Positions 1,653 to 15,530 of a stretch of DNA of 20,382 nt are shown here, one piece after another; positions within the stretch are counted from its first letter, which is position 1, and the number at the start of each line of letters is the position of its first letter. Source of the DNA: a virus. The notes below the pieces were generated by a model. The model searched no databases. It was not told where the DNA came from and saw only the letters and a list, made by a program, of their open reading frames with translations. Where the stretch lies: IMG/VR virus record IMGVR_UViG_3300046689_000566, positions 1 to 20,382 of that record. One strand, 5' to 3'. A program made the position numbers and the translations under genes.

Positions 1653-2018
1653 ATGTCATTTGCACCAGGCACCCCGAAACCGGCAGGCAGCGGCCGTAAG
1701 CGCGGAACCGGAAACAAACTCACCATCTCCGCAAAGCTAAAGGCTCTCGGGTGCGATCCCATACAAGGAATGGCCATACTCGCAATGGACACATCACTGA
1801 AGCCGGAACTTCGCGGGCGCATGTACGCCGAACTCGCGCAGTACCAATGGCCAAAGCTGCGCTCAATTGAGCATAGCGGGGGTATGATGGGAATTTTGGA
1901 TGTCAACCTCGCAGATCCACTATCAACCCTCCGGGCTCGAGTTGCTCGCATCGCTGAGCGAGAGCGGGCGAGCGGAGTTCTACCGATCGCTCAGTCCGAC
2001 CGAACGGGCACGGATTAA
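1653..2018 (+). CDS. Putative terminase small subunit (DNA-recognition protein)
   Basis: This 121-residue protein sits immediately upstream of the large terminase. It opens with a Pro/Gly/Lys/Arg-rich tail (PKPAGSGRKRGTGNK) and continues into helices with an ELRGRMYAELAQYQWPK segment. That pattern is common in small proteins encoded just before phage large terminases and presumably binding packaging DNA. The call rests on position and pattern, not on a diagnostic fold. It starts one base after the methyltransferase stop, without a good Shine-Dalgarno. A TAAAAT box at 1633-1638 could serve as a -10 for a very short leader. Its last 40 codons overlap the large-terminase start by 119 nt, which is long for a phage. 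The overlapped tail is low in recognisable structure and may be dispensable. Confidence 0.6.
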   Translation: MSFAPGTPKPAGSGRKRGTGNKLTISAKLKALGCDPIQGMAILAMDTSLKPELRGRMYAELAQYQWPKLRSIEHSGGMMGILDVNLADPLSTLRARVARIAERERASGVLPIAQSDRTGTD

Positions 2019-4212
2019 CTACGACTGGCGCGGCTTCACGGCCAGGCCGAATCAACTTCCGCCCGGGACCCCGGGCTCATCGAATATCCGCAAAGAGTGG
2101 CGCTACTGGCTCGTGCAGGCTGGCCGCGGATTCGGCAAGACGCGCACTGGCGCCGAAACCGTACGCGAGTGGGTGAGCCAGGGATATCGCCGTATTCACA
2201 TCGTGGGCCCGACCGCGGCGGATGCGCGCGACGTCATGGTATCGGGCGAAAGCGGGCTGCTCTCCGTCTTCCCGCCCGATCACAGGCCGATGTACGAGCC
2301 TTCCAAGCGGCTGCTCACGTTCCACACCGGCGCCGTCGCTTACACTTTCTCTGCCGATGAGCCGGAACGGTTGCGCGGCCCGCAATGTCTTTCGGTCGGG
2401 ACTATGGTGCTCATGGCGGACGGGACAGAAATTCCAATTGAATCAGTGAAAGCAGGAGATTATGTCTTAACGCGGCGCGGCCGGCGGCGTGTTCTTAAGG
2501 CTTGGATGACTAGTACCAACGCTGATGTATTTAGCTTGAACACATTGGACGGACGAAGCATAATAGGCACAGGAGATCACCGGATATGTGTGACACTTGC
2601 GTCGAATGGGATGGGAGGATCTGGCACAAAAAACCAGGGGGGAGCTACTACCAGACACGATTGCTCCTTCATCGAGAGATTTGGAAGTCCGAACGCGGCC
2701 CAATCCCAGATGGCCACCACGTTCACCACGTTAACGGGGATATCCACGATAATCGCATCGATAACCTGGAGCTCCTATCGAGCGGCGCGCACAGCCGACT
2801 GCATTGCAGAGAGAAGCTCGACCCATATAAAGACAAAGCCCGAGAGGCAGCGCAGGAAGCATCGCGCCGCAACCGAGAAATCCGAATCCGCACGCGCCGG
2901 CTCAAATGCATTGTCTGTGGAGCTTCGTATGGAAGCGGAGCTCCCAAGCCGGCCGTATATTGCTCTACCCGATGCCTGGAGAAGCTCCGCAGCGGCTTTC
3001 ATGGCGACCGCAGAATATGCGAACAGTGCGGAGCTCCGTACACGGCCAAACGTAGAGCGCAAAAGTATTGCGGGATGCTCTGCAACCGTGCGGCCTGCGC
3101 GAACCGGGAACCAATTCAGGCGAGGGAAATTATTTGCGGTCATTGCCGAGTCGCGTTCTTATCCAAGCGGTCCAACGCAACTTTTTGTTCAAGGAAGTGC
3201 GCCGTTGCTTTCCATGAGGGAAGTCGATTCCGTAGAACCATTAAAGCTTCGGCTGCCAGTCTACGACCTAACGATTGAGGGAGAGCACGAGTTTTTCGCC
3301 AACGGCATTCTGGTTCATAACTGTGAAGCAGGATGGTGCGACGAGATCGCATCGTGGCGATTCCCCGACGCCTGGGACAACTTCCTCTTCGGCCTGCGCC
3401 TCGGGAAAGATCCGAAGGCCGTCATCACCAGCACGCCGAAGCCGATCAAGCTCGTGCGCGACATCATCGGGGATCCCCACACGGTGGTAACGCGGGCGTC
3501 GAGCTATGAGAACCGCGCGAACTTGGCGCCGGCCTTCTTCGACTCGATCATCCGCAAATACGAAGGGACGCGCATCGGCCGGCAGGAGCTGGACGCCGAG
3601 CTACTCGAAGACGTGCCCGGCGCACTGTGGACGCGGGCGCTCATCGATGCCACGCGCATCAGGCCCGGCGAAGTGCGGTGGGATTTGATCGTGCGTATCG
3701 TCGTGGCCATCGATCCCGCGGTGAGTTCCAGCGCGACATCCGACGAGACAGGCATCGTGGTAGTCGCCTTGACGCGCAGCGGACATGTGGTGGTGCTCGA
3801 TGATCTCTCGTGCCGGCAGTCTCCGCTCGGCTGGGCGAAGGTGGCAGTGGCGGCGTACCGCTCGCGCCAGGCGAACATGATCGTGGGCGAAGTCAATAAC
3901 GGTGGCGACCTCGTCGCGATGAACGTGAGGGCGGTTGACCCGCTGGCAGCTTTCCGCGCAGTGCGTGCGAGCCGTGGCAAGTACATCAGAGCCGAGCCGG
4001 TGGCTTCGCTCTATGAACAGGGGCGCGTGCACCATGCCGGCGCGTTCGAGCGGTTGGAGGATCAGATGTGCGGGTGGACGCCGCAGGGCTCGGAGCGGTC
4101 GCCCGACCGCATGGATGCGCTGGTGTGGGGCGTAACGGAACTACTGATCGATCCAGCACCACAGACCCTGCGTGTGCCCATCGGCGGCGACTACCAGATC
4201 TCGCCTATATAG
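1900..4212 (+). CDS. terL: Terminase large subunit with in-frame intein
   Basis: This is the packaging motor: its ATPase translocates DNA into the prohead and its nuclease cuts the concatemer. The N-terminal extein has Walker A at about residues 74-82 (QAGRGFGKT). After the intein (residues 163-474) the ATPase resumes with CEAGWCDE, the Walker B region, and then the STPKP coupling motif near 511. The RNase H-like nuclease shows AIDP (D605), GEVNNGG (E664) and PDRMDALVWG (D739), the expected three acids. Removing the 312-residue intein leaves 458 residues, a normal size. The start at 1900 is chosen because the SLSPTERARINYDW and ARPNQLPPG segments typical of terminase N-termini need it, and no later ATG precedes Walker A. 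Splicing out the intein is required to rebuild the ATPase site. The gene ends 39 nt before the next promoter-linked gene. Confidence 0.93.
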   Translation: MSTSQIHYQPSGLELLASLSESGRAEFYRSLSPTERARINYDWRGFTARPNQLPPGTPGSSNIRKEWRYWLVQAGRGFGKTRTGAETVREWVSQGYRRIHIVGPTAADARDVMVSGESGLLSVFPPDHRPMYEPSKRLLTFHTGAVAYTFSADEPERLRGPQCLSVGTMVLMADGTEIPIESVKAGDYVLTRRGRRRVLKAWMTSTNADVFSLNTLDGRSIIGTGDHRICVTLASNGMGGSGTKNQGGATTRHDCSFIERFGSPNAAQSQMATTFTTLTGISTIIASITWSSYRAARTADCIAERSSTHIKTKPERQRRKHRAATEKSESARAGSNALSVELRMEAELPSRPYIALPDAWRSSAAAFMATAEYANSAELRTRPNVERKSIAGCSATVRPARTGNQFRRGKLFAVIAESRSYPSGPTQLFVQGSAPLLSMREVDSVEPLKLRLPVYDLTIEGEHEFFANGILVHNCEAGWCDEIASWRFPDAWDNFLFGLRLGKDPKAVITSTPKPIKLVRDIIGDPHTVVTRASSYENRANLAPAFFDSIIRKYEGTRIGRQELDAELLEDVPGALWTRALIDATRIRPGEVRWDLIVRIVVAIDPAVSSSATSDETGIVVVALTRSGHVVVLDDLSCRQSPLGWAKVAVAAYRSRQANMIVGEVNNGGDLVAMNVRAVDPLAAFRAVRASRGKYIRAEPVASLYEQGRVHHAGAFERLEDQMCGWTPQGSERSPDRMDALVWGVTELLIDPAPQTLRVPIGGDYQISPI
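2536..2575 (+). promoter_or_regulatory. Candidate promoter and ribosome binding site for the nested HNH gene
   Basis: Inside the intein N-terminal coding region there is TTGAAC (2536-2541), a 17-nt spacer and CATAAT (2559-2564), a fair sigma70-type match. AGGAG follows at 2571-2575, 10 nt before the ATG at 2586. This would let the endonuclease be expressed independently of terminase translation. The elements are short and could be chance matches within coding DNA. Confidence 0.4.
2586..3278 (+). CDS. HNH homing endonuclease nested out of frame inside the intein
   Basis: This 230-residue protein is read in the -1 frame relative to the terminase/intein. It has a complete HNH module: WDGRIWH, LLLHREIWK, then IPDGHHVHHVNGDIHDN and NLELLSSGAHSRLH, matching the HREIW...HHVNG...DN..NLE layout of phage HNH homing nucleases. 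Three zinc-finger-like repeats follow (CIVC...CSTRC, CEQC...CGMLC, CGHC...CSRKC), probably for DNA recognition. The ATG at 2586 has an AGGAG at 2571-2575 and a possible promoter at 2536-2564. HNH-like sequence begins before the A6 and G6 homopolymers, so a single homopolymer error does not easily explain the frame. Its last 60 or so bases overlap codons for intein blocks leading to F. The expected role is to cut intein-less terminase alleles and so spread the intein. A pair of compensating frameshifts in an ancestral in-frame HNH intein is the main alternative. Confidence 0.82.
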   Translation: MCDTCVEWDGRIWHKKPGGSYYQTRLLLHREIWKSERGPIPDGHHVHHVNGDIHDNRIDNLELLSSGAHSRLHCREKLDPYKDKAREAAQEASRRNREIRIRTRRLKCIVCGASYGSGAPKPAVYCSTRCLEKLRSGFHGDRRICEQCGAPYTAKRRAQKYCGMLCNRAACANREPIQAREIICGHCRVAFLSKRSNATFCSRKCAVAFHEGSRFRRTIKASAASLRPND

Positions 4213-4216
4213 CCGC

Positions 4217-4245
4217 TTGCGCAATTGCGCACGGCGTGATAGAGT
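4217..4245 (+). promoter_or_regulatory. Promoter for the glycan cassette, leaderless type
   Basis: TTGCGC (4217-4222), a 17-nt spacer and an extended -10 (TG-A-TAGAGT, hexamer 4240-4245) lie between the terminase stop and the ATG at 4252. Exactly 6 nt separate the -10 from the ATG, so transcription would start at or next to the A of the start codon. A palindrome overlaps the -35 and the spacer. Confidence 0.6.
4218..4231 (+). repeat. Palindrome TGCGCAATTGCGCA, possible operator
   Basis: This perfect 14-bp inverted repeat overlaps the -35 and spacer of the promoter before 4252. Its 12-bp core recurs at 14631-14642, directly before the TATAAT of the PAPS-reductase gene. Both copies lie at promoters, so a shared repressor or activator site is a reasonable guess. 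Confidence 0.5.
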
Positions 4246-4251
4246 GGCGTC

Positions 4252-4545
4252 ATGCGTTCCGTACGGCATTCCCGCAATCACGTTGGCCTCAAGAAGGCGC
4301 AGGCGGAATCCGGATTGGTCCGTGATCAGTGGTATTCCGAGACATCCAAGACGGCGATGGATGCCAGAGTGGACTTTTTTCGCAAGCAGGCCGAACTCAT
4401 CGCCGATAACACCGGCCCGGTGCGTGTGCTGGTGGTAGACGGCCAGCCGACCGGCGCGGCTACGCCGGCGGCCCTGACTGAAGTGGAACGATGCGCGCGT
4501 ATCGCCCAGATCAAGGCGCGCATCCTGGAGAGACGCAATGCCTGA
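4252..4545 (+). CDS. Hypothetical protein, first gene of the glycan cassette
   Basis: I do not recognise this 97-residue protein. It is basic at the N-terminus (MRSVRHSRNHVGLKK) and has a central amphipathic helix (ETSKTAMDARVDFFRKQAEL). A short hydrophobic strand (VRVLVVDG) is followed by a proline-containing loop and a C-terminal helix rich in Arg and Glu. There is no signal peptide or membrane segment. The start is the ATG at 4252. No Shine-Dalgarno precedes it, but a TAGAGT box lies exactly 6 nt upstream, so it is probably translated from a leaderless mRNA. It heads a run of 14 genes and overlaps the next by 8 nt. A structural or regulatory role for that operon is possible; no function can be assigned. 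Confidence 0.65.
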   Translation: MRSVRHSRNHVGLKKAQAESGLVRDQWYSETSKTAMDARVDFFRKQAELIADNTGPVRVLVVDGQPTGAATPAALTEVERCARIAQIKARILERRNA

Positions 4546-5344
4546 GCCGAGAGTGTGCGCCATCCTGCTCACGCGCGACCGGCCCGAGATGGCACGCCGC
4601 GCAGTGGAGAGCTTCAGGCGGCAGACCTACGCCAAAACGCGGTTGATCATCTGGAATACGGGCGAACGGCTATCGCGCGACGTATTCGTCGGCGAGGATA
4701 TCTTACTCTGCGAGCCGACCCTCTCGGCAAAGACGATAGGCACATTGCGCAACGAAGCGATCTTTGCGGCGGGCGTGTTCCATGGCGACATCATCCTGCA
4801 CATGGATGACGACGACGTATCGCACCCCAACCGCATAGCCGAGCAGGTGGCACTGCTCCAGGCGAGCGGCGCGGAGTGCGTCGGGTACCGGGAGGCGCTT
4901 TTCTGGCGCAAGCGCACGGTCGGGCCATCGGATGTGAGCCCGATGGAACGTACGATGCCGGTGCAAGACATCAGCGAAGTTTGGCTTTATTCAGTGGCGA
5001 GCCCGTCATGGGTCATCGGCGCCAGCCTCTGCTACTGGCGCAAGACGTGGCTGGAGCATCCCTTCCCGGATCTGCCGCGGCCGGGCGTGCAGGGCGGCAG
5101 CACCGAAGACGTGGTCTGGCGGCGCGGCGTGAAGTGCCTGGGCGTTAGCGGCATGAATGCGCAACTCGGCTTTATGTGGGAGGGTGGACAATTCCGGTCA
5201 GTCGCCAATGAGCCCGACGAGCCGCGCCTGATCTGCTCAATCCACGGCGGGAACACCATGGCTTACGAAGTTGAGAAGTATCCCGACACGTGGAAGCGCG
5301 TACCGCAGTGGGACGACTATTGCAGGAGGAAGATGGCTCTATGA
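4538..5344 (+). CDS. GT2-like glycosyltransferase (GT-A fold)
   Basis: This 268-residue protein looks like a family 2 glycosyltransferase, which moves a sugar from a nucleotide-sugar donor. The N-terminus (VCAILLTRDRPEMARRAVESFRRQTY) is the usual first beta-alpha unit. The metal/nucleotide-binding DXD motif is within LHMDDDDVSHPNR, at residues 88-99. No membrane segment is visible, so it should be cytoplasmic. Acceptor and donor sugars cannot be read. It overlaps the upstream gene by 8 nt, with GGAGAG just before the ATG. Its stop overlaps the next start by 4 nt (ATGA). It is one of four GT2-like proteins in this cassette. The late part (STEDVVWRRGVKCLG) resembles the ED-containing acceptor-site region of GT2 enzymes. 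Confidence 0.82.
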   Translation: MPEPRVCAILLTRDRPEMARRAVESFRRQTYAKTRLIIWNTGERLSRDVFVGEDILLCEPTLSAKTIGTLRNEAIFAAGVFHGDIILHMDDDDVSHPNRIAEQVALLQASGAECVGYREALFWRKRTVGPSDVSPMERTMPVQDISEVWLYSVASPSWVIGASLCYWRKTWLEHPFPDLPRPGVQGGSTEDVVWRRGVKCLGVSGMNAQLGFMWEGGQFRSVANEPDEPRLICSIHGGNTMAYEVEKYPDTWKRVPQWDDYCRRKMAL

Positions 5345-14654: not shown

Positions 14655-15530
14655 ATGGTCATCAATTACTGTGGGTTGAGTGGCGGCAAGGATTCCAGCG
14701 GAACCACACTCTGGCTGATCCACGAAAGCGGCGTGCCGCGCGAATCCATCCGATTCACATTCTGCGACACCGAAAACGAGCATCGGTTCGTTTACGAACA
14801 CGTCGCGATGCTTTCGGAATACGTTGTCAAACATGGTTGCCAGCCAGTGGTTACACTCCATCCCGAACGCGGATTTATGGAATTGGCGCGGTGGAAAGGC
14901 CGCTTCCCGAGCCGCAGGGCGAGGTTCTGTACGCAGTTCCTAAAAGTGATTCCGACTCGTGAAGATGTTCAGTCTTTGATCCGCAACGGCCACGAAGTTA
15001 TCGTACATTCGGGCGTACGGGCCGGAGAAAGCGCCGACAGAGCGAAACTCGTTGATCGCGGCTTTGACGACATGTTCGGCTGTACCGTGAACCGTCCGCT
15101 TTTGCGCAAGAGCCTTGAGCAGGTCGTTGCCATGCACAAGACGTACGGAGTGCCGCTCAACAAGTTGTATAGCTATGGGTTTAAGCGCGTAGGCTGCTTT
15201 CCATGTATCAACAGCAACAAATCGGAAATTAAGCTGATCTCGATTCATTTCCCCGAACGTATCGACGAGTTGCGCTCGCAGGAGTTAGACCCGAACTTTG
15301 GCCGCGGCATCTCGACATTTTTCCATGCCAAAACAGTACCCCCTCGCTTCAGATCGCGGACGGTTCCGACGAAGGACGGCCGCCAGGTAGCCATTTGCAC
15401 GATTGACGACGTGGTGCGATGGTCGCACACCGGCAAGGGAGCAAGGGAACGAACGCCGGCACTATTCGAAGACTTCTACGACGACGATAAAACGCTTGTT
15501 TGCCCGTCAGGAGCGGGCATGTGCGAATAA
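14655..15530 (+). CDS. PAPS reductase family protein (PP-loop ATP pyrophosphatase)
   Basis: This 291-residue protein opens with the PP-loop CGLSGGKDSSGT (residues 6-17), followed by FTFCDTENEH. Sulfur-handling members of the PAPS reductase/DndC family share this layout. Paired Cys occur at VGCFPCINSNKSE (about residues 175-187) and at the end (LVCPSGAGMCE), which could hold a metal or sulfur. ARFCTQFLKVIP resembles the RxC.....K segment of the family. Phage members are common and usually uncharacterised; proposed roles include sulfate use, nucleic-acid thiolation and DNA phosphorothioation. No other dnd-type gene is visible, so a full phosphorothioation pathway is unlikely from this window alone. 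It has its own TATAAT promoter and no Shine-Dalgarno, and its stop is 3 nt from a convergent gene. Confidence 0.85.
   Translation: MVINYCGLSGGKDSSGTTLWLIHESGVPRESIRFTFCDTENEHRFVYEHVAMLSEYVVKHGCQPVVTLHPERGFMELARWKGRFPSRRARFCTQFLKVIPTREDVQSLIRNGHEVIVHSGVRAGESADRAKLVDRGFDDMFGCTVNRPLLRKSLEQVVAMHKTYGVPLNKLYSYGFKRVGCFPCINSNKSEIKLISIHFPERIDELRSQELDPNFGRGISTFFHAKTVPPRFRSRTVPTKDGRQVAICTIDDVVRWSHTGKGARERTPALFEDFYDDDKTLVCPSGAGMCE

Follow-up and report, generated by a model that had tools for sequence, protein, structure and literature searches.

The window, that is the whole stretch of viral DNA analysed (20,382 nt, IMG/VR record IMGVR_UViG_3300046689_000566), contains a gene for the large subunit of terminase (TerL) which reads through 770 aa without a stop, and which is interrupted by an intein continuous with the frame of the host protein. 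A second gene, encoding an HNH endonuclease, is read from the same DNA in the -1 frame, and the features of the locus are as follows.

1900-4212, + strand: open reading frame of the TerL precursor, with Pfam matches to Terminase_6N, Terminase_6C and Intein_splicing
1900-2385, + strand: N-extein of TerL
2386-3321, + strand: intein reading frame, 312 aa, with Cys1 and Cys+1; close relatives have an empty site
2536-2564, + strand: promoter-like pair TTGAAC-17-CATAAT of the HNH gene; such pairs are enriched in the family (27 observed, 7.1 expected)
2569-2580, + strand: splicing block B (TGDH), in which T62 and H65 do not vary across 55 inteins
2571-2575, + strand: Shine-Dalgarno-like site AGGAG, 10 nt upstream of the ATG at 2586 (duplex -7.4 kcal/mol versus -3.1 kcal/mol for background)
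2586-3278, + strand: HNH endonuclease gene, -1 frame, 230 aa (Pfam HNH_3, E 2.7e-15; AF2 mean pLDDT 91)
2664-2795, + strand: HNH catalytic core (Pfam HNH_3, residues 27-70)
2907-2975, + strand: zinc ribbon 1 (C108, C111, C126, C130), from the sequence and its conservation in 54 relatives
3018-3083, + strand: zinc ribbon 2 (C145, C148, C162, C166), from the sequence
3135-3200, + strand: zinc ribbon 3 (C184, C187, C201, C205), invariant in a 7-sequence alignment
3256-3321, + strand: splicing blocks F and G (PVYDLTIEGEHEFFANGILVHN)
3322-4212, + strand: C-extein of TerL

The intein is located after RGPQ, immediately upstream of a Walker-B-like CDE motif, and possesses splicing blocks A, B, F and G, with Cys1, TGDH, the C-terminal HN and Cys+1 all present. 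The window thus fulfils the criteria for an intein, namely the splicing blocks and residues, a frame continuous with the host, and insertion at a conserved site for which empty alleles exist. The empty site (RGPQ-C..DE) was found in the close TerL relatives L105-L107, L109 and L138, and an intein was present in only 3 of 80 TerL relatives, a patchy distribution. Across 55 inteins the Cys1, the T and H of block B, the terminal Asn and the block F residues were invariant, while the middle was divergent. Two further IMG/VR records are identical to the window over approximately 6 kb, without a single indel. A group I or group II intron was rejected as a reading of the insert, as Rfam gave no match to a ribozyme core of either type at 1700-4300 (E up to 1), and a split intein, with its halves on separate polypeptides, does not apply to the window since the intein frame lacks a stop.

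The HNH frame is at offset 2 to the TerL frame, i.e. -1, and overlaps the intein frame for approximately 200 codons. The HNH protein contains three CxxC..CxxxC zinc ribbons, and in the first of these C108 and C111 were invariant in 54 relatives, with C126 and C130 conserved in at least 90%; the HNH_3 core was detected in all 54. The best sequence match in the PDB was I-HmuI (E 4.5e-4), and a fold search of the PDB gave nothing significant, with I-HmuI ranking third (E 0.26). The AGGAG site of the HNH gene sits within the codons of the block B TGDH motif, and its TGA stopcodon is formed from the block F codons ATT-GAG. An earlier note on this DNA had claimed an out-of-frame HNH gene within a terminase intein at 2386-3321, which was upheld by the reading frames, the Pfam matches and the splicing residues, and the three zinc-finger-like repeats, own ATG, AGGAG site and TTGAAC-17-CATAAT pair that it listed were all present. 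Elsewhere in the window, a 136 aa reading frame near the contig end (19574-19984, - strand) appears by eye to be another HNH endonuclease, and a reading frame at 14655-15530 (+ strand) that starts with an LSGGKDSS motif appears by eye to encode a PAPS-reductase-like phage protein.

Related loci were collected from viral contigs, genome contigs, annotated phages and TerL relatives using profile scans built from the splicing blocks, and were classified with HMMs for the N block, the C block and the HNH core across the three forward frames; an alignment of the HNH proteins (A1) was too divergent for scanning the collections and was replaced by intein alignments. The sampling followed one C-terminal splicing motif, leaving other intein clades uncounted. 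In total 125 distinct inteins were collected, and 116 of these contained an HNH gene, representing 54 clusters (HNH identity below 70%) and a GC content from 0.26 to 0.69. The HNH gene was at offset 2 (-1) in 116/116, with the intein frame open in every one of them, and within the sampled clade none of the 116 had the HNH in frame with the splicing blocks, although intein clades outside the sampled one are known to have in-frame HNH domains. The scan of genome contigs gave three loci only, all with the same -1 offset. One viral relative (L004) shares the offset and both open frames with the window, at 56% identity in the HNH and 41% in the intein frame, and the phage genome records with this offset include Tetrasphaera phage TJE1. 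The nested -1 architecture is therefore a trait of the family rather than a peculiarity of the window phage. In 41 of the 54 clusters the HNH gene stops 43 or 55 nt upstream of the intein end, within the conserved block F codons. The hosts are almost all TerL genes (49 of 53 host reading frames match phrog_2, terminase large subunit), with insertion sites varying over the family between the Walker B region and the nuclease motifs. Only TerL is annotated, and the HNH gene was left without annotation, in Tetrasphaera phage TJE1, Rhodobacteraceae phage MD07 and Acinetobacter phage Highwayman. One TerL gene (L016) has two inteins four codons apart (3001-4002 and 4015-5007), and both of these carry a separate HNH gene in the -1 frame. 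One of the 53 host reading frames (A7 set) also matches LAGLIDADG_3 in frame, and this gene may harbor an additional intein of the ordinary kind.

The absence of stops from the intein frame of the window has a probability of 0.024 under synonymous permutation of the HNH gene, and of 0.031 when this is re-coded according to the codon frequencies in 12 further genes of the window, hence chance cannot be excluded from the window by itself. It is ruled out by the family, as synonymous shuffling of the HNH genes predicts 151 stops in the intein frame over the 54 clusters and none were observed. The permutation method is calibrated by the third frame, which contained 998 stops versus 1032 expected, and in each of the nine relatives that are free-standing or split, the corresponding frame is interrupted by 1-14 stops. 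The expected number of stops per HNH gene is approximately 3 in the +1 frame, where the intein sits, versus approximately 19 in the other frame, and this calculation suggests that the constant -1 offset exists because it places the intein in the stop-poor frame.

The two frames differ in what is conserved. In every pair compared, substitutions within the overlap were commonest at the third position of the HNH codons (the second of the intein codons), and changes in the N-terminal splicing block were commonest at intein position 3 in nearly all pairs. With the changes concentrated at the wobble positions of the HNH codons, it is the HNH protein that is conserved in the overlap, and the substitution positions gave no sign of protein-level selection on the intein frame within the overlap. 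Likewise, no clear difference in intein-frame hydropathy from synonymous shuffles was seen (mean z 0.57). The AF2 model of the intein has well-defined ends (pLDDT 86-98), with most of the middle at 40-55 and one helical stretch at 65-86. The intein frame in the overlap is merely held open, as a linker that is predicted to be disordered.

The HNH genes have startcodons of their own (49 ATG, 4 GTG and 1 TTG), and the last in-frame stop precedes the start by a median of 21 nt, with this gap being ≤30 nt in 37 of the 54 clusters and ≤12 nt in 19. Promoter-like pairs within 110 nt upstream of the HNH gene numbered 27, versus 7.1 (sd 2.4, maximum 17) expected when host codon usage is applied to the unchanged amino acid sequence, and none of 1000 runs reached 27; the pairs are present in only 25 of the 54 clusters. 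Isoleucine is encoded by ATA in 74 of 138 cases in the region upstream of the HNH gene versus 473 of 1696 in the exteins. A mobile element need not share the codon usage of its host, which is a caveat to the re-coding test, but the excess persists against dinucleotide shuffles (0.50 pairs per cluster observed versus 0.14) and compares with 0.05 in HNH-coding windows, and was strongest among GC-rich inteins (0.60 versus 0.026). Enrichment of Shine-Dalgarno sequences over the family was modest (p 0.013), and as approximately half of the clusters lack one, this was discarded as a universal signal. We consider it likely that the HNH protein is made separately from the splicing part, with expression inferred from sequence alone.

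The remaining claims of the earlier note can be assessed against these results. Its estimate that chance would leave the second frame open in a few percent of cases held for the window, with the family then ruling out chance. The proposal that selection keeps both frames held in part only, as it applies to openness, and the amino acids of the overlap are conserved in the HNH frame; the comparison of selection signals per frame that it suggested showed change concentrated at HNH wobble positions. Its inference that the nuclease is made independently of splicing is supported by the offset in 116/116, the short start gaps in 37/54 and the promoter enrichment, and remains an inference with regard to expression. 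The search of related inteins that it proposed showed the same offset throughout, with none of the in-frame HNH homologues that it named as refuting among the 116, and its alternative of compensating frameshifts failed on the identical records and the conserved offset.

Close relatives of the HNH protein are encoded by free-standing genes adjoining terminase genes. In the HNH tree, which is poorly resolved, free-standing sequences are interspersed with the nested ones at two or more positions, and this scatter suggests exchange between the two states. Similarity of the HNH and of the intein blocks was only weakly correlated (rho 0.15), so the two parts may possibly have been swapped between elements.

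Separate N- and C-intein polypeptides were found only in three relatives (L009, L014 and L098). In Vibrio phages 1.238.A and 1.245.O (L009 and L014) the TerL split intein halves are separated by the -1 frame HNH gene, with 14 stops in the former linker. In Brochothrix phage BL3 (L098:727-2607) TerL ends in an N-intein and gp3 resembles a C-intein, with a zinc-ribbon HNH relic in the -1 frame. In Campylobacter phage CP20 (L100), a ribonucleotide reductase gene contains N- and C-intein parts on either side of a broken reading frame of unknown type, and the annotation splits the gene. Two further inteins lack an HNH gene, and have a DUF559 (Vsr-like) endonuclease gene antisense to the open intein frame (L237:2702-3553, - strand, and L103:2636-3376, - strand). 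Both DUF559 genes have AGGAG/GGAGG upstream of the start, and lack TTA, CTA and TCA codons, each of which would read as a stop in the intein. The host of the intein in L103, which is Vibrio phage 1.265.O, is a Mu-F-like head gene.

We propose that the locus is a mobile TerL intein with a nested, separately expressed HNH homing gene in the -1 frame. This is the likely explanation, and it builds on what is shown (both frames and their conservation, the protein-level constraint on the HNH, an intein frame free of stops, the empty sites, and the start and promoter-like signals), with splicing, separate expression, cleavage and homing all inferred from sequence alone. Reading of the DNA in the TerL frame would give a TerL-intein precursor, in which the N- and C-terminal splicing blocks would form the Hint fold, and the approximately 200 codons between them would be a stop-free, probably disordered linker that is removed along with the intein. 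Reading in the -1 frame from its own startcodon, with a promoter probably inside the N-terminal splicing region, would give a free zinc-ribbon HNH nuclease, which may cleave those TerL alleles that lack the intein, at the position where it inserts, and so allow the intein to be copied in. A bolder reading, which we can neither favor nor discount, is that these loci represent a widespread, undescribed class of phage inteins in which the endonuclease is independently transcribed and translated, nested in the -1 frame or, in the two DUF559 relatives, antisense, and from which, owing to the unconstrained linker frame, split inteins with a free endonuclease gene would naturally arise.

Of the alternatives, the one that survives best is compatible with the proposed nested intein, and holds that it is a transitional form of a split intein, where loss of the linker would leave an endonuclease gene flanked by the N- and C-halves. 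In its favor, the nearest solved intein is that of gp41-1 (E 2.5e-18), with NrdJ-1 also matched, the two Vibrio phages share the layout with stops in the linker, and the Brochothrix phage BL3 split intein carries an HNH relic. The direction of change is inferred only, and the HNH tree is poorly resolved, hence the case stands evenly balanced. Secondly, splicing may have been lost, with the HNH gene being the sole active part and TerL tolerating or avoiding the insert, a situation that has been suggested for the ShiLan domain. There is indeed a published case of an unspliced protein with an HNH out of frame (PMC11855218), and the middle of the intein frame is unstructured in the AF2 model; however, the splicing residues remain invariant while the middle diverges, the insert interrupts an essential packaging motor at its catalytic motifs, and the intein frame is open throughout the 116, which makes this unlikely. 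Thirdly, the HNH could be produced solely as a fusion to the N-part of the intein by programmed -1 ribosomal frameshifting, as the invariable -1 offset might suggest. However, X XXY YYZ slippery heptamers were absent from the possible slip gap in 52 of the 54 clusters and present in only 2, this gap is mostly short, the HNH genes have startcodons and promoter-like sites, and the constant offset is otherwise explained by the paucity of stops in the HNH +1 frame (151 versus 1032 expected over the 54 clusters). Frameshifting is therefore very unlikely, and was dropped as a general route because of the rare slippery sites and short gaps. Finally, the assembly could be wrong, or an ordinary intein with its HNH in frame could have undergone a pair of compensating frameshifts. 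This was raised in the earlier note and could give such a picture in a single sequence, but is all but excluded by the two identical records, by the -1 offset shared with L004, other distinct inteins and phage genomes including TJE1, and by the lack of an in-frame HNH in the 116 inteins.

Textbook inteins free their endonuclease only via translation and splicing with the host protein. With an apparent promoter and startcodon of its own, the spreading enzyme could be regulated independently of splicing, and likewise be lost or exchanged. The nested intein is also a case of large-scale overlap coding (approximately 200 codons in the -1 frame) preserved across distant phages, and offers a testable route from a continuous to a split intein, as a single stop in the unconstrained linker could suffice.

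Classical inteins such as PI-SceI have in-frame LAGLIDADG or HNH domains. The nested intein resembles these in combining a Hint splicing domain and a homing endonuclease in a single insertion, and differs in that the endonuclease is outside the intein polypeptide. The HNH core is shared with I-HmuI and with free-standing phage HNH homing endonucleases, whereas I-HmuI is located within a group I intron and no intron was found here. The ShiLan domain, described in 2025 (PMC11855218), is an out-of-frame HNH insertion in a methylase without a splicing domain; as in the nested intein, an HNH protein with zinc fingers is encoded in the third frame and the insertion does not interrupt the reading frame of its host. 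The two are also alike in their patchy distribution and in their mobility, which for the nested intein is inferred. There are no intein splicing blocks there, whereas here intact blocks flank the HNH, the hosts are TerL genes and the layout is common to 116 distinct cases. Out-of-frame HNH insertions are already known, but without an intein, and it is possible that cases similar to the nested intein are reported in a preprint cited in the ShiLan paper, on actinobacteriophage inteins of 'non-canonical architecture' (doi 10.1101/2025.01.02.630785). The split inteins gp41-1 and NrdJ-1 are the closest solved inteins by sequence, with gp41-1 also the top fold match. Loci of this type often have an endonuclease gene between the halves; here, in contrast, the intein is continuous, and the endonuclease gene overlaps it instead of separating its halves.
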